Below, in pieces: positions 54,819 to 62,223 of a stretch of 64,000 nucleotides of DNA. A program made the position numbers and the translations under genes. Location: positions 62,001 through 126,000 of the forward strand of contig JAIZWL010000004.1 in NCBI GenBank assembly GCA_021498125.1, read 5' to 3'. Positions within the stretch are counted from its first letter, which is position 1. The number at the start of each line of letters is the position of its first letter. The stretch comes from Candidatus Thorarchaeota archaeon. Lineage in GTDB: Archaea > Asgardarchaeota > Thorarchaeia > Thorarchaeales > Thorarchaeaceae. A model generated the notes under the pieces. That model saw nothing but the letters and a program-made list of their open reading frames with translations. It was not told where the DNA came from and searched no databases.

Positions 54819-56381
54819 TTACTCGGAATAGGACTTCCATAACTCGCCCCACTCGGTCTCTTCAAAGAACCATTTGACCCATTTTTTGCCTTTCAGCGGG
54901 AGCCAAATACCGTCATGATAGAGCCCGGAGAGTTGAGTTGGTAGCCACATCAATGGCGATCTAAATAGAAGCCATTCCATTCCCGGGAAGCGAAGAAAGC
55001 CACGATTCCAAGTGATCACAGGACTTCGACCAGTCGAGAGATGGAAGTTCGGAAGATCTTTCCACGACTCGAAATCACCAACGAGCTCGATGTTCTCGGG
55101 GTCCGACTCGCCAAGGCCTAACTCCTTTGCGATCTGTAGCTTTCTGACAAGCCTCTGGTCAAGACCCATGATCCGAGTCTGAACAGTATCGGCTGCAACC
55201 ATATCGTTCGTTGCAAGAAGTATATTTCCGACCTTTGGGATCATAGTACGCGGACCCGCCCCATCCCCAACAATGGTACCGTCGGTGAGCACAAACTCGG
55301 AATTGGAAATTGTCTTTTGAAGGAAAAGAAGATCTACTAGCACCTCATGGATCTTCAGATGAGCAAGATGCCGATTCTTGGTCAAATAGAGACCAAAAGA
55401 GTCCTTCAGAGCCCCAGTCATCTCCGTGTGGCCGTGTGTGTTGTGAAGAACAATTCCGTTTCCTACAAAATTGTTAGTCCCGGTAACACTCAAATCGTAT
55501 AGATATTTAACATCACTGTCAATTTGAGTTACTTCAGTCACATGATCCCATGCAATATTGTCGAACGTAATCTCTTCATTTTGAAGAGCTGCGATCATAT
55601 CACCTTGTGTAATACGATCAGCTCGTTTCCAGCCTGTTGGTGTCAAAAATGGATGGCGCCCAGAAACTTTGACTTCCTTAGAGGTCTTTGTCTTAACTAG
55701 ATAGAGCTTCTTTGGAGAAGGAGTTCTCCAAAACTGATAGGCGAATCCTTCTTTGACCGACCCATCCGGATTCAATGTAACAATACCCACACGAGATTCT
55801 GCGACAGCATCCCCATCGGGAGTAGCAATCACATCGGTGCTCTCATGGATATCATCCACAAGATCGGAAATGGGCAAGATGCGTCCATCTGCAAGATGAA
55901 CCTGGGTATCGGGATGAACGCACTTAATTGTAGGCAAGTGGACTATGTTTGTCCCGAAGATCTCTTTGGGAGCGATGACTTCTCCAAATATGTTCTCCAG
56001 CTCGAGTGTTCTTCGCGAGAGTTTGACAGGAACGTAGTGAGCATAGATTAGTGGAAAGAATTTGATCTTGTGCTTTCGCAGGACGGGATACCAGTTATTT
56101 TGTCGAGTGCCTTCAAAGATATTTGTCACGACGGTCTCGTTTTCAACCGCCTGTATTCGTCGTGGCTCATAGCCATCAGCAATTAGTTTTTTGAGGAACC
56201 CATCAAGAATATACGGGTTCGTCGAGCAGGCCGGATAGAACTTGCTCCATGAAAGATTAAGTTTGATACTGGTTAGCTTGTTTTTATCGATGTGCTTATC
56301 ATAATCAGCCAAGTCCATCAGACGGGCGATATCATCAAAAATGGTCTTTGGACTTGTCTTGACAACTGCAACTTTGACCAT
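54819..56381 (-). CDS. DUF362 domain protein interrupted by a mini-intein
   Basis: The host protein (about 359 aa after splicing) belongs to DUF362 (PF04015): KLTSIKLNLSWSK near residue 35-47, an internal PTIK|THGHTEMTGALKDSFG junction that restores the conserved K-T-H-x-x-x-T-G-A-x-K motif, and GDGAGPR with a later MVAADTVQTRIMGLD. Residues 154-314 are a 161-residue intein. DUF362 proteins are sometimes joined to ferredoxin domains; none is seen here. The catalytic role is unknown. It is the first gene of a four-gene minus-strand set with a UbiA-type prenyltransferase, a PHP phosphoesterase and a flippase-like protein. Splicing of the intein would be required to make the active protein. Confidence 0.88.
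   Translation of the reverse strand: MVKVAVVKTSPKTIFDDIARLMDLADYDKHIDKNKLTSIKLNLSWSKFYPACSTNPYILDGFLKKLIADGYEPRRIQAVENETVVTNIFEGTRQNNWYPVLRKHKIKFFPLIYAHYVPVKLSRRTLELENIFGEVIAPKEIFGTNIVHLPTIKCVHPDTQVHLADGRILPISDLVDDIHESTDVIATPDGDAVAESRVGIVTLNPDGSVKEGFAYQFWRTPSPKKLYLVKTKTSKEVKVSGRHPFLTPTGWKRADRITQGDMIAALQNEEITFDNIAWDHVTEVTQIDSDVKYLYDLSVTGTNNFVGNGIVLHNTHGHTEMTGALKDSFGLYLTKNRHLAHLKIHEVLVDLLFLQKTISNSEFVLTDGTIVGDGAGPRTMIPKVGNILLATNDMVAADTVQTRIMGLDQRLVRKLQIAKELGLGESDPENIELVGDFESWKDLPNFHLSTGRSPVITWNRGFLRFPGMEWLLFRSPLMWLPTQLSGLYHDGIWLPLKGKKWVKWFFEETEWGELWKSYSE
55440..55922 (-). other. Mini-intein (161 aa, no homing endonuclease) in the DUF362 protein
   Basis: The first residue is Cys154 in the block-A sequence CVHPDTQVHLADGRILPISD. 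Block B is VSGRHPFLTPTGWKRAD, with the T-x-x-H-type histidine position filled by GRHP. The end is YLYDLSVTGTNNFVGNGIVLHN, with terminal His-Asn (residues 313-314). The following extein residue is Thr315, a permitted nucleophile. The middle is too short for a LAGLIDADG or HNH endonuclease. Removal joins K153 to T315 inside the most conserved motif of the host, typical of intein insertion at active-site-like positions. Confidence 0.9.
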
Positions 56382-56506: not shown

Positions 56507-56863
56507 TTAGTGCTCAATCTTGTCATCGGAGATGTTTGGAATCTTGACGGCAAGAATCAACGTATCAGTATTTGATTCGGCCTCTAACCAGTGCTCTTGT
56601 CCGCGATCCACAATTGCCACATCCCCTTCATTTAGGGAATACATCTCTGAACCGATACCGATGCGTGCGGGAGTCAGGGCGACCATCACTTCATCAACGT
56701 GTTCATGAAAATGTGGACAAGTTCGTCCGCCCGATGGAACCCGGACTAGTATGAACCCTGCTGTTGTGATCGGTTCCCGAAAGACAACATCGGCAATATA
56801 TTGGGCGCTATACCCATGCCGGCGCTGAGGTGGATTGGATGATGCACGAAAGATTTTAGCCAT
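56507..56863 (-). CDS. Small cupin-domain protein
   Basis: The 118-aa protein is a single cupin_2 barrel. Motif 1 is GGRTCPHFHEHVDEVMVAL (metal ligands His-x-His and Glu), and motif 2 is SLNEGDVAIVDRGQEHWLEA with its His. The frame is open to 56890, but a TAATTTAAG box near 56893-56900 would start transcription about 56871. This favours the ATG at 56863 (MAKIFRASSN). It is divergent from the pseudo-GTPase operon. Cupins of this size act as metal-dependent enzymes or ligand sensors; the substrate is unknown. Confidence 0.8.
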   Translation of the reverse strand: MAKIFRASSNPPQRRHGYSAQYIADVVFREPITTAGFILVRVPSGGRTCPHFHEHVDEVMVALTPARIGIGSEMYSLNEGDVAIVDRGQEHWLEAESNTDTLILAVKIPNISDDKIEH

Positions 56864-56990
56864 TGATTGTTCCCATGATGCAGACATCATATGCTTAAAT
56901 TAGTGTTACGCCATAGACAAAGTATCATACACCAGTGGAATCTTAAGCGCCCAGTACAATGATATCACAAAGAAAACGGAGCAAAATTCT

Positions 56991-58097
56991 GTGCAAGTGA
57001 AGCATTCAAGGACCACCAAGAGAATACTGCTCAAGACAGTGGTCCTCGGCTTCGATCCTGCACTTCAGGCGGGCTATCTCAATATGGCTGCTGGGTCTAA
57101 TCTCTCCCACCAGTTATTCAATGCAGTTGGCGTCTGCATTGGAGTGGTGAATGTCCAGCAGGAACACGAACGTGTTGCAATTCAGATGTGGTCATTACCG
57201 CTAGAAGAACGATTACAGGGTCTCACACAATCGTTCATGAGAGGACGCCATGTTGTGATCATAGTACTTCGGCCCGAAGAAGTGAAAGAGGTACAGAGGA
57301 TTCTCAACGCGAGCGGCATCACGGATCACGAACGTATCATGTATGTCATTATCGGAGATGAACCAGAAGCATCAGAAGCAATCACACGTCTCCAATCAAC
57401 GCTTGACCGTTCGGTCAACATAGGTGTGAATAACTCAGTCATTGATACGGTACTAAATATGATCAAGCATTTTTCATTCTTCAGTGAGAAACCAGATAGT
57501 CCACTCATTGTCAAGCTAAGCCCTGAGATTTGTAGACCATTCGTGGCCACCATGGGCACAGAAAAATTCCCGGCCAATACACCAGAAGAAGTTGAGGCAA
57601 TCATTCATCTTGCAAGAGGTTATAAACTTGAAATCTCCGACGACGAAACGGAAGTGATCTTCGCTCTGCCCTTGGGCAAGGTCAAATTGAACATTGTCAC
57701 AGGGTCAGTGATATTCTACCCTACCGCATGTGAATTGTGCAAGAACACGTGTAAACGTAAAATAAGACTCTGTATCGTCACGGCAGACTCGGGGTGGACG
57801 AACACACCATTCAGTCCGGGGGCCCTCTTTACGATCGCAAAATTGTACGCCTTCGCAACTCAAGATCTTCCGCAAGACGTAGAGTCACAGATGCTACGTG
57901 CGGTCCAATGCTCAAAGTTCAACCCGATTGATAGCTTTGACAATGAAATGAAGAGAGCAATCATGCCACCTCAAGGTCATCCTCACCTTCAAGAGTCACT
58001 CATGCAAATTGCGCTACGGAGATTACGAAGCGGTAAATTAAATCGTGAGACTTTTGAGATGTTAAAGAAACGATTGAAAAGTGCACGTCAGGGATAG
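56991..58097 (+). CDS. Degenerate small-GTPase-like protein (pseudo-GTPase) with Cys cluster
   Basis: The first 170 residues follow the Ras/Rab/Gtr fold pattern. The strand ILLKTVVLGFD occupies the place of the P-loop, but the next residues are PALQAGYL, so the GxxxxGK(S/T) motif is lost. IQMWSLPLEERLQGLTQSFMRGRHVVIIVLRP corresponds to the W-D-x-x-G-Q-E-R-x...YYRGA..VVFD region, with the DxxG also lost. Residues about 175-250 form a second domain. It is followed by CELCKNTCKRKIRLC, a likely metal site, and a helical C-terminus. The GTG start has GGAG nine bases upstream. The gene lies 20 bases ahead of the LOG-family gene and shares its operon with a PPP phosphatase. A non-hydrolysing scaffold or regulator is the most likely role. 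The family assignment is by pattern and is not certain. Confidence 0.7.
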   Translation: MQVKHSRTTKRILLKTVVLGFDPALQAGYLNMAAGSNLSHQLFNAVGVCIGVVNVQQEHERVAIQMWSLPLEERLQGLTQSFMRGRHVVIIVLRPEEVKEVQRILNASGITDHERIMYVIIGDEPEASEAITRLQSTLDRSVNIGVNNSVIDTVLNMIKHFSFFSEKPDSPLIVKLSPEICRPFVATMGTEKFPANTPEEVEAIIHLARGYKLEISDDETEVIFALPLGKVKLNIVTGSVIFYPTACELCKNTCKRKIRLCIVTADSGWTNTPFSPGALFTIAKLYAFATQDLPQDVESQMLRAVQCSKFNPIDSFDNEMKRAIMPPQGHPHLQESLMQIALRRLRSGKLNRETFEMLKKRLKSARQG

Positions 58098-58117
58098 GCA
58101 CGAAGGTCGAATCACCA

Positions 58118-58633
58118 ATGGTAAAACCAATGATTGCAGTAGTTGGAGGTTCTAGCGCAGATGAGGAGGTACTCGTTCTTGCAGAAGAAGTCGGACGAGA
58201 AATCGCACGTAATGGAGCAGTGCTTGTCTGCGGCGGACTCGGCGGAGTCATGGAGGCTGCCTGCCGTGGGGCGAAGGCCGAGGGAGGAATCACCGTAGGC
58301 ATACTCCCCACAGATGACCACGACCATGCTAATGCATATGTAGACATCGCCATCCCAACAGGTCTAGGGTATGGGAGAAATGTGCTTGTTGCAAAGAGTG
58401 GAATGGGGGTCATTGCAATAGCGGGTATGGCAGGAACACTTAGTGAGATGGCCATTGCATGGTTCTCGAATCGACCGATAGCCGGACTTGTCTCATCCGG
58501 CGGCTGGGCCAAACGCCTTGCAGGAGAACGCATCGATGAAAGACGTTCGGATCAAGTCTATTCTGCAACCTCGGCCCGCGATGCTGTCGAGTACATACTC
58601 AAAGAGATTCAGAGGGTTCCCACAAGTGAATGA
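58118..58633 (+). CDS. TIGR00725 / LOG-like Rossmann-fold protein
   Basis: The 171-aa protein has the family layout: an N-terminal strand MIAVVGGSSADEE, the nucleotide-binding LVCGGLGGVMEAACRGAKAEGG.TVGILP, and GMAGTLSEMAIAW in place of the PGGxGTxxE motif of cytokinin-activating LOG enzymes. LOG enzymes release free bases from nucleoside 5-monophosphates; TIGR00725 members lack a proven substrate. Its stop overlaps the phosphatase start by eight bases, so the two are translated together. Confidence 0.88.
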   Translation: MVKPMIAVVGGSSADEEVLVLAEEVGREIARNGAVLVCGGLGGVMEAACRGAKAEGGITVGILPTDDHDHANAYVDIAIPTGLGYGRNVLVAKSGMGVIAIAGMAGTLSEMAIAWFSNRPIAGLVSSGGWAKRLAGERIDERRSDQVYSATSARDAVEYILKEIQRVPTSE

Positions 58634-59471
58634 ACAATTTATTGAAGACTTGAGTACTGGTCAGAGAAAATTGGAACGGGACGAAGCTGTACGACTCTTA
58701 CATAAAGCAATCGAACTCAATAAGAAAAAGAAAAACGTCGTACGAATTCCTGATCGTGATGTCGTATTTGTCGGAGACCTTCATGGCGAGCTGAATTGTC
58801 TCAGATCGGTCATAGAACAGTTCGTAAAATCTACTGAAAAACATATTGTGTTTCTTGGAGACTATGGTGACCGTGGCCCACTTCAGGTTGAGACCTTCAA
58901 TACTGTCGTTGCTCTCTTGACCACCTACCCAGAACGAATCACCATGCTAAGGGGAAACCATGAGGCAATGAGTGTTGCTTCGAGATATGGGTTCCGCGAT
59001 GCGATTTCAAAGGTGTACGGTGGAGAGATGTTTGATGAATATTGCAACGTCTTTGCGGCCCTGCCTATCGCGGGCAAATCCAGAGATGGCCTCTTTTGCT
59101 GTCATGGGGGTGTTCCTGAGGGCGTAACCTCTATCTCTCAGCTACAATCAATCGACCGGCATCAAATAGACCCCGAACAGGGAATGCTTTTCCAGATCCT
59201 ATGGAATGATCCTTCGGAGGGCGATTTTAGATTTACAGATAATATTCGCGGCGGTAACTCTCGCTATTTTGGCCGAATTGCATTTGCCGAATTTCAAGAG
59301 AGGCTAAATATCCATACTATGATTAGAGCGCATCAAGTTTTTCCCGAGGGCTACAAAATCTTCTTTGATGGCGGACTCATTAGCGTTTTCAGTGCTACGT
59401 ACCTCGATAGAGTCAACCCAAAAGTCATTGTGCGAGATAATGAAAACGGTATCCGACCAGTTGACATATGA
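58626..59471 (+). CDS. PPP-family serine/threonine protein phosphatase
   Basis: The 281-aa protein has all PPP metal and catalytic motifs: GDLHGE (GDxHG), GDYGDRG (GDxxDRG), RGNHE (GNHE), CCHGG (HGG) and RAHQ. These match eukaryotic PP1/PP2A-type enzymes that remove phosphate from Ser and Thr with two metal ions. The GTG at 58626 (VNEQFIEDL) has AGAGGG nine bases upstream and is preferred over the ATG at 58488, which lies deep in the previous gene. Co-transcription with a pseudo-GTPase suggests regulated signalling. No membrane span is present. Confidence 0.9.
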   Translation: MNEQFIEDLSTGQRKLERDEAVRLLHKAIELNKKKKNVVRIPDRDVVFVGDLHGELNCLRSVIEQFVKSTEKHIVFLGDYGDRGPLQVETFNTVVALLTTYPERITMLRGNHEAMSVASRYGFRDAISKVYGGEMFDEYCNVFAALPIAGKSRDGLFCCHGGVPEGVTSISQLQSIDRHQIDPEQGMLFQILWNDPSEGDFRFTDNIRGGNSRYFGRIAFAEFQERLNIHTMIRAHQVFPEGYKIFFDGGLISVFSATYLDRVNPKVIVRDNENGIRPVDI

Positions 59472-59605: not shown

Positions 59606-60649
59606 ATGAACAAAGAATCATCCGAAAATCCTAATACAAGATCCATTGATAGAATCAAGAACAATCTCTCAAAATATCTGCTACCGTACACATTTATTGT
59701 CATGCTACTTGGTTTTACTACTGGCTATTATTTTCAAAGTAAAATATACTCACAACTAGTGTTGCCAGTGGTCTTCATTATGATCTACCCCATGATGATC
59801 AACATGTCTATCTCACATCTTAAGAAAGTCAAGGGTTCTATTAAACCATTAATCTTAGCGCTTATTCTCAATTTTGTCTATGCACCGATCATCATGTACT
59901 TTCTTGTTGACATCTTTGTACCCGATATTGATCTTGCAATTGCACTGATATTCTTAGCAATTGCACCAGCGTCAAGTATGGGCTTGGGCTACATCGGACT
60001 GGCGGAGGGGCATATGTTGACGGGGTCCATCATCGTGACAACTGCCTTTCTTGTTTCACTCGTGGCCTATCCAATCTTTGGTATATATCTCGCAGGAGTA
60101 GGGCACATTACAATACCAGCAGCTCTGCTCATTCAAAACCTGATAATAGTAATCGTCCTGCCCTTTGCCCTTGGGATCGGAACTCGCGAGTATATCGAAC
60201 GACATCATGGAATTAAAAAATATGGAGAAATAAAAGCGTACTTCTCAACAACGACTCTGGCTGCATTGTATGTTCTAATGTTTTTGATCTTTGCTTCTAA
60301 AGCCCATCTTATCCTCGAAAAATACACGATATTTTTCATGATAGCCCCGGTGGCACTCATCTTCTATCCACTTACGACCTACTTGATTACACATGTCAAC
60401 AAGAGAATCTTAAATCTAGAATATGGAACGCATCAATCCGTAGTCTTCACATCAGTGAGCAAGAATGTTGCACTAGCAATTGCCATCTTCATTGCAGTCT
60501 TCGGAGAGGTAGGACAGTACATGGCAGTAGCCCCCGCAATAATGTCTCTGTTTCAAGCTCCATTTTTGATGGGCTATCTAAGACTGTCAGATCGCGTCAA
60601 ATCATTTTTCTCTCTAAAAGAGGATGATGCTGATATAGACACACCATGA
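59606..60649 (+). CDS. BASS/ACR3-like membrane transporter
   Basis: The 347-aa protein has about ten membrane spans. YPMMINMSISHLKKVKGSIKPL near residues 60-85 and SVSKNVALAIAIFIAVFGE near 283-302 resemble the bile-acid:sodium symporter superfamily, closest in pattern to ACR3 arsenite exporters. The cysteine that ACR3 needs in span 4 is absent: the corresponding stretch reads AIAPASSMGLGYIGLAEG. Arsenite export is therefore doubtful and the substrate is open. A TDT-family transporter follows about 110 bases downstream on the same strand. Confidence 0.8.
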   Translation: MNKESSENPNTRSIDRIKNNLSKYLLPYTFIVMLLGFTTGYYFQSKIYSQLVLPVVFIMIYPMMINMSISHLKKVKGSIKPLILALILNFVYAPIIMYFLVDIFVPDIDLAIALIFLAIAPASSMGLGYIGLAEGHMLTGSIIVTTAFLVSLVAYPIFGIYLAGVGHITIPAALLIQNLIIVIVLPFALGIGTREYIERHHGIKKYGEIKAYFSTTTLAALYVLMFLIFASKAHLILEKYTIFFMIAPVALIFYPLTTYLITHVNKRILNLEYGTHQSVVFTSVSKNVALAIAIFIAVFGEVGQYMAVAPAIMSLFQAPFLMGYLRLSDRVKSFFSLKEDDADIDTP

Positions 60650-60758
60650 TTATAATTTATGAAAATGAGGTAATAGCAATAAAAAAGAACATTGTAGTGT
60701 GTACATCGAAATATTGAGATATAGTAATTTTCCCGAAAAATGCAACGAAGGAGATAAA

Positions 60759-61790
60759 ATGGATTCAAAGTGGATTCAAAACTTCGCCCCCTCATGGTTT
60801 GCTGTAGTGATGGGGACAGGTATCCTTGCAATGACAAGCCTTCAATACGCAACAATGTTGCCTTTACTTGGATTTGTGGCGTCTGGATTGGCTATTTTTA
60901 ATATAATAGTCTTCTTTATTTTATTGATTCCTTGGATACTAAGATGGATCTTCTATCCCAAGGAGGCATCAGACGATCTAAAACATCCAAACATGAGTAA
61001 TTTCTATCCCACTATGACGATTGCACTTGTGGTTCTTGCAGCCCATTTTGGACAGTTCGGATTCAGTAGTCTTGCATTCCGAACATGGCTTCTCGGGGCA
61101 CTTGGTACAGTTATCTTCAGTATACTAATTCCATATGAGATGTTCAAGAAAGAGGAAATTGCTCCTGAGCATATCTCACCAGCATGGTTCATCCCTCCAG
61201 TTGCTCTGATTGTCATTCCTCTTGTGGGAGGACCATTTATCGCTCAGGCTAGCGGCCTTATGCAGGAGTTCTTGATTCTACTGAACTACTTCGGTTTCGG
61301 TGCAGGATTTTTACTATATATTTCACTCCTCGCAATCTGCCTTTACAGGTTTATCATCCATCACCCGATGCCAAACACAATGGCCCCAACAGTATGGATA
61401 AGCCTTGGACCTATTGGTGCTGGAACTGTTGCCGTTGTAAATGTGATAACCAATTCATCATTTGTAACAGTTAAGGAGCCTTTCTTCATCATGGGATTCC
61501 TGTTCTGGAGTTTTGGAATCTGGTGGCTCTTCATGGCAATCATCATGACAGTTCACTATATTCGAAGGTTGACACTCCCGTATGCAATGACCTGGTGGGC
61601 GTTCATCTTTCCCCTCGGCGCTTTTGTTGCAGGATGTCACGTGATTGGGCAGACGTTAGGGTTCCAGTTGATCGATTTCATTGGTTTTGGTCTCTACTGG
61701 TTGTTATTCACATTTTGGATAATCACAAGTATTGGTCTGGGATTTATGCGAATCCACAAAAAAGACAAAAGACCGGAACAAGACCAATGA
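60759..61790 (+). CDS. TDT/SLAC1-family transporter (tellurite-resistance/dicarboxylate type)
   Basis: The 343-aa protein has ten predicted spans and opens with MDSKWIQNFAPSWFAVVMGTGIL, the usual start of the C4-dicarboxylate/tellurite (TehA/Mae1/SLAC1) family. The ATG at 60759 follows GGAG with ideal spacing; the frame open to 60699 lacks one. Relatives are anion channels or exporters for sulfite, malate or chloride; the substrate here is not evident. It converges tightly on the small membrane protein gene (one base between the stops). Confidence 0.86.
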   Translation: MDSKWIQNFAPSWFAVVMGTGILAMTSLQYATMLPLLGFVASGLAIFNIIVFFILLIPWILRWIFYPKEASDDLKHPNMSNFYPTMTIALVVLAAHFGQFGFSSLAFRTWLLGALGTVIFSILIPYEMFKKEEIAPEHISPAWFIPPVALIVIPLVGGPFIAQASGLMQEFLILLNYFGFGAGFLLYISLLAICLYRFIIHHPMPNTMAPTVWISLGPIGAGTVAVVNVITNSSFVTVKEPFFIMGFLFWSFGIWWLFMAIIMTVHYIRRLTLPYAMTWWAFIFPLGAFVAGCHVIGQTLGFQLIDFIGFGLYWLLFTFWIITSIGLGFMRIHKKDKRPEQDQ

Positions 61791-61791
61791 T

Positions 61792-62223
61792 TCAAAAATC
61801 ATTGAGATCATCATCATAAGATCGTTCGTGCTCATCGAGTACTACTGTTCCATCAGGCAAGACACGCTGCAACAGGTCATAATCTTCATTCCATTCACGG
61901 TATCGTCTTCTACGACCTAAAAATCCAGCTACGGTAATTACAACAAAGACAATAATGGCAACTGAATAAAGCTCTGTTCGCGAGTCAAAATAACTTGAAG
62001 ATACTGCTAGTGCAGCAACAGCAATTGCTCCAATAAGAACCATGTTCAGACAGCAATCACATTGGAGCGATGCACCCTTCGGCCCAAGGGCGTAATCTTC
62101 AGGAGTTGTTCCTGGAGCATAGTTTAGGTAGTAGTTGAAGATGGCCATGAGAATAGTGACTGCACTGATCGATAACAGAAGCATTAGGTCCATCTTCAAC
62201 CAAGTCCTCCGTTCACGCATCAT
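61792..62223 (-). CDS. Small three-span membrane protein, unknown function
   Basis: The 143-aa protein has three hydrophobic spans (about 10-32, 58-80 and 86-105). A cysteine cluster CDCC lies at the second span, and the acidic cytosolic tail (DLLQRVLPDGTVVLDEHE) follows a GRRRRYREW basic stop signal. I know no family. Its ATG overlaps the stop of the PIN-domain gene (ATGA), so the two are co-translated and may work together. Confidence 0.75.
   Translation of the reverse strand: MMRERRTWLKMDLMLLLSISAVTILMAIFNYYLNYAPGTTPEDYALGPKGASLQCDCCLNMVLIGAIAVAALAVSSSYFDSRTELYSVAIIVFVVITVAGFLGRRRRYREWNEDYDLLQRVLPDGTVVLDEHERSYDDDLNDF

Follow-up and report, generated by a model that had tools for sequence, protein, structure and literature searches.

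A Rab-like pseudo-GTPase encoded beside an SLOG-family protein and a eukaryote-type PPP phosphatase in Thorarchaeota

Gene content and setting of the locus

The window analysed here is a stretch of 64,000 nucleotides (positions 62001–126000 of its contig) from a 3.1 Mb Candidatus Thorarchaeota genome. Three genes follow one another on its forward strand. The first, P1 (56991–58097, +; GTG start), encodes a pseudo-GTPase of 368 amino acids, with a Rab-like G domain at approximately residues 10–160, a C-terminal cysteine domain at approximately residues 165–312, and a helical tail; the part of the cysteine domain that is conserved Asgard-wide covers residues 198–312 (57582–57926, +). P2 (58118–58633, +; 171 amino acids) is a Rossmann protein of the TIGR00725/SLOG cluster 4 type, similar to molybdenum cofactor (MoCo) carrier protein, and P3 (58626–59471, +; 281 amino acids, GTG start) is a minimal eukaryote-type PPP phosphatase with the catalytic motifs and both clamp arginines. 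P1 and P2 are separated by 20 bases and P2 and P3 overlap by 8, so that the tight packing described in the original prediction, which was made from this DNA alone, is correct in coordinates and gaps, and the three genes are probably co-transcribed. Close relatives that share the locus mostly carry the label Candidatus Thorarchaeota, among them SMTZ1-45, AB_25, and OWC2/3/5, which supports the Asgard origin assumed in the original prediction.

In Thorarchaeota the trio is accompanied by genes for a PIN-like protein (a call made by eye, with no Pfam match) and a membrane protein, a divergent cupin gene, and DUF362-type, UbiA, and PHP genes. Because the trio lies inside this larger conserved neighbourhood, adjacency by itself says little about a functional link. 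The flanks are more variable than the trio, with P3 and the DUF362-type gene tens of bases apart at the least and about 3 kb at the most. In the window, the Cupin_2 gene (56507–56890, −), which stands beside the operon in most loci, forms with the trio a block whose orientation is reversed with respect to the flanks; the spacing within the trio is still tight. Two transporter genes, of the SBF and SLAC1/TDT families (59606–61790, +), lie between the operon and the membrane-protein and PIN-like genes, an insertion absent from the other Thorarchaeal loci compared. That the trio has stayed intact despite the inversion and the two inserted genes favours cohesion.

The DUF362-type gene of the window (54819–56381, −) is interrupted in frame by an intein (PF14890, E = 6e-19). 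Among the related copies in Thorarchaeota, some have no intein (L068, L070, L071), some have a much larger one (L072, L074), and one, on a contig that is cut short, shows where an intein starts (L076).

A G domain without nucleotide-binding motifs and a conserved cysteine domain

Searched as a single sequence, P1 matched Roc in Pfam at E = 0.0014, which is under that family's cut-off, and Rab35 and Rab7 in the PDB at 4e-5 to 1e-4. A profile of 24 family members matched Rab23 over the G domain at E = 1.9e-22, and single members of the family matched PF00071 with values down to 1e-24. The AlphaFold2 model of P1, built from 20 sequences, has a mean pLDDT of 83.5 and shows the strands and helices of a G domain complete and in order. 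Foldseek matched it to Rabs in the PDB with probability 1.00. Structure prediction and fold search thus agree on the small-GTPase-like fold that had been proposed, and speak against a fold outside the P-loop class.

The motif pattern first read from the sequence is equally borne out: P1 lacks GK(S/T) and DxxG and keeps W-x5-E-R. The window copy has GFDPALQA where GxxxxGK(S/T) is expected and WSLPLEER where DxxG is expected; NKxD is also missing. A GxxxxGK(S/T) P-loop is absent from all 39 family members that were inspected and from all 22 full-length orthologs in the class, while the genome's 28 matches to the Ras family retain it in 27 cases. P1 therefore belongs to the Ras superfamily by fold and lacks the P-loop, DxxG, and NKxD of an active switch, the combination of G-domain fold and missing nucleotide-binding motifs that characterizes a pseudo-GTPase. 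It is a Rab-like protein that has lost its GTP-binding motifs, and, judging from its sequence, it probably does not bind nucleotide. Several relatives outside Thorarchaeota keep the P-loop lysine, some with the serine or threonine after it, and have lost the preceding glycine; in Thorarchaeal copies the lysine has gone as well, together with the second glycine. This gradation suggests that decay of the nucleotide site started before Thorarchaeota branched off.

The C-terminal domain has the pattern CxxC-x3-C-x6-C, one later cysteine, and a Gly-Trp pair at 268–269. C247, C250, C261, and C307 are invariant in the 24 aligned family members and C254 is present in at least 90% of them; all five are common to the 22 full-length orthologs of the class. 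The cysteine cluster pointed out at the start is thus conserved across relatives. The domain belongs to no Pfam family and has no relative among PDB sequences, and Foldseek gave no convincing match to PDB folds (best E = 1.0). It is present in 74 of the 228 genomes of the phylum (Asgard archaea) and was not found in 38 non-Asgard genomes, a small sample picked by P2 homology in which a negative outcome carries no weight by itself. Because the cysteines are invariant, they probably hold a metal, with zinc likelier than an Fe-S cluster. Short open reading frames of 142–177 codons encode a domain of this type apparently without a G domain (G111:C131, G112:C15, G113:C22, G115:C76, G116:C192, G117:C50).

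The SLOG-family protein and the phosphatase

P2 passes the curated cut-off of TIGR00725 (142.7 vs. 106.9 bits) and that of SLOG cluster 4 (143.2 vs. 26.3 bits), and falls short of those of the LOG-type models TIGR00730 (45.5 vs. 96.35 bits) and NF058542 (36.6 vs. 300). The LOG active-site motif PGGxGTxxE (PMC4979012) occurs in 0 of 22 P2 sequences. Together, the cut-offs and the missing motif rule out a canonical (cytokinin-type) LOG enzyme. The term “LOG-like” used in the original prediction consequently holds at the superfamily level and not for LOG itself, and the suggestion that P2 makes a nucleotide found no support; P2 is instead a TIGR00725/MoCo-carrier-like SLOG protein whose presumed role is to bind or process a ligand resembling a nucleotide. 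It matches the Chlamydomonas MoCo carrier protein (PDB 2iz5) at E = 6e-20, although nothing in this locus connects P2 with the molybdenum cofactor. P2 homologs, mostly single genes, occur in 164 of the 228 genomes of the phylum.

The PDB matches of P3 are to PP1, PP2A, and calcineurin, with E values between about 1e-34 and 1e-40 (an engineered form of calcineurin is lower). The motifs GDxHG, GDxxDRG, GNHE, HGG, and RxH are all present, as they are in nearly all Thorarchaeal copies; the exceptions are GGLHG in motif 1 of one copy (L026) and GDYGERG in one other. P3 also has the counterparts of the PP1 clamp residues Asp208 and Arg221, given as the mark of eukaryote-type PPPs in PMC8249667. Motifs, clamp residues, and PDB matches agree with the assignment to eukaryote-type PPP phosphatases first made by inspection. 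P3 is the sole eukaryote-type PPP match in its genome, and most PPP-bearing genomes of the phylum likewise have one; homologs occur in 165 of the 228 genomes, mostly as single genes. By its sequence, then, P3 appears to be a bare catalytic domain and the cell's single eukaryote-type Ser/Thr phosphatase. Genome-wide, a single match to the protein kinase family PF00069 was found, outside the window (G000:C2:101786-102088), in a 219-codon open reading frame of Bud32-type size.

The EukaryoticPPP-like archaeal phosphatases resemble P3 in their PPP motifs and in the two-arginine clamp of eukaryote type, and no operon partner or regulatory subunit is reported for them in the part of that article consulted (PMC8249667). 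The link of P3 with P2 and P1, in contrast, is specific to Thorarchaeota among the loci examined. In several non-Thorarchaeal Asgard families, the PPP gene follows, with operon-like spacing, a gene for an amino-acid-kinase-family (carbamate-kinase-like) protein, an adenylate kinase, or an XPD-like helicase (L087, L088, L089, L091, L092, L095, L096, L105).

Recurrence of the trio and the role of P1

Of the 47 genomes of the class, 26 have a P1 ortholog, spread over 10 of 13 genera, and in every Thorarchaeal P1 locus not cut by a contig end the order is P1-P2-P3 on one strand. Gaps between P1 and P2 range from −98 to 23 bases (20 pairs; the large negatives are over-long mechanical start choices) and those between P2 and P3 from −14 to 52 bases (32 pairs). 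The trio thus recurs widely in the class, contrary to the possibility that no related genome would have it. In ten genomes whose upstream sequence is readable, P2-P3 stand without P1 (G003, G018, G027, G036, G038, G039, G041, G042, G044, G045), and whole-genome searches did not find P1 elsewhere in them. These P1-less species are scattered over about five places in the topology of a P2+P3 tree, which suggests several losses of P1. Its absence from scattered branches while P2-P3 stay fits an accessory subunit.

Outside Thorarchaeota the P1 family is patchy. All three genes exist there, but P1-P2-P3 adjacency was not found in the loci examined, in which P1 relatives stand beside neither P3 nor P2. 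In two other Asgard genomes a P1-like gene (L124:3070-3501 and L133:5844-6266) is followed by a UPF0047 (YjbQ-like) gene.

The best explanation, to which as a whole we give a probability of roughly 0.4, is that the Thorarchaeal operon was assembled from three old Asgard genes and that P1 would serve the P2-P3 unit as a non-switching regulatory or targeting factor, with the surface of its G domain retained as a fixed face for binding proteins. Gene order, also the one line of evidence behind the original proposal that P1 directs the phosphatase or senses a nucleotide, suggests that P1 may contact P3 physically and regulate it. The other neighbours that P1-like and PPP genes have elsewhere in Asgard archaea, and the single PF00069 kinase match in the genome, count against this explanation. 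The role is proposed by analogy with eukaryotic pseudo-GTPases that act as scaffolds, such as CENP-M (PMC4080450), or as activators, such as Rnd1/3 acting on p190RhoGAP (PMC10211241). Like P1, CENP-M, the dynein light intermediate chain, and the pGTPase domains of p190RhoGAP have a Ras/Rab fold from which nucleotide motifs were lost (PMC4080450, PMC4359372, PMC5593906); in these proteins the fold is kept for protein contacts, and the same is proposed for P1, known here from sequence and predicted fold. CENP-M also has relatives with a better-kept P-loop, as in the P1 family. P1 differs from the eukaryotic cases in being archaeal, in having a C-terminal cysteine domain without known relatives, and in sharing an operon with a PPP phosphatase.

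The main rival, somewhat less probable than this regulatory or targeting role, is that P1 is a pseudo-GTPase adaptor whose job has nothing to do with the phosphatase and which shares the operon only through a frozen Thorarchaeal neighbourhood. The conserved cupin, DUF362-type, UbiA, and PHP genes nearby, the unrelated neighbours of P1 relatives in other Asgard archaea, and the many species that have P2-P3 without P1 are all consistent with such an adaptor. Against it stand the greater variability of the flanks and the tight P1-P2-P3 spacing in a block that has been inverted. P1 might alternatively be a sensor, in which the cysteine domain binds a ligand derived from P2, an Fe-S cluster, or a metal, and what is left of the G domain signals to P3. 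We consider this unlikely: the near-complete conservation of the five cysteines and the membership of P2 in a nucleotide-binding superfamily fit a sensor, but four invariant cysteines would equally suit a purely structural zinc site, and P2 lacks the LOG motif and has no known product. Continued binding of guanine nucleotide through altered residues is very improbable, since the K(S/T) remnant that would speak for it is confined to some non-Thorarchaeal relatives, whereas Thorarchaeal P1 lacks the lysine and second glycine of the P-loop, DxxG, and NKxD. The rapid divergence of P1 (about 30% identity) and its frequent absence would suit an artefact of sequencing or binning, or a pseudogene in decay. 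That explanation has hardly any weight, however, because more than 20 independent genomes carry an open frame of about 370 codons in which certain residues are invariant.

Asgard archaea also have Rab-like small GTPases, among them Thor-Rab and the MK-D1 set (PMC10933270), which share superfamily, fold, and organisms with P1. Those described in the portion of that article consulted are nucleotide-binding Rab/Rag/MglA-like proteins or fusions with roadblock or longin domains, whereas P1 lacks a P-loop and is joined to another kind of partner domain. The article also shows MK-D1 GTPase fusions with unknown “?” domains, and P1 family members may already be among them. In the open-licence literature we found neither an Asgard pseudo-GTPase family nor the P1-P2-P3 operon described, and no archaeal partner of PPP phosphatases.

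Eukaryotic PPP phosphatases require regulatory subunits. As a conserved operon partner, P1 is a concrete, testable candidate for an archaeal PPP partner. The origin of PPP enzymes has been traced to Asgard archaea (PMC8249667), and Thorarchaeota are relatives of the ancestors of complex cells; the place of its gene in the conserved operon makes P1 a candidate ancient accessory subunit of a eukaryote-type PPP. Ras-family proteins without nucleotide-binding motifs are already present across Asgard archaea, while the well-studied pseudo-GTPases cited above are eukaryotic. A broader proposal, which we regard as improbable though less so than the sensor, is that an Asgard-wide pseudo-GTPase family with a new cysteine domain gave rise, in one branch, to a regulatory subunit dedicated to the ancestral PPP of eukaryote type. 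If this is true of the P1 branch, both pseudo-GTPase scaffolding and dedicated PPP regulatory subunits would predate eukaryotes.
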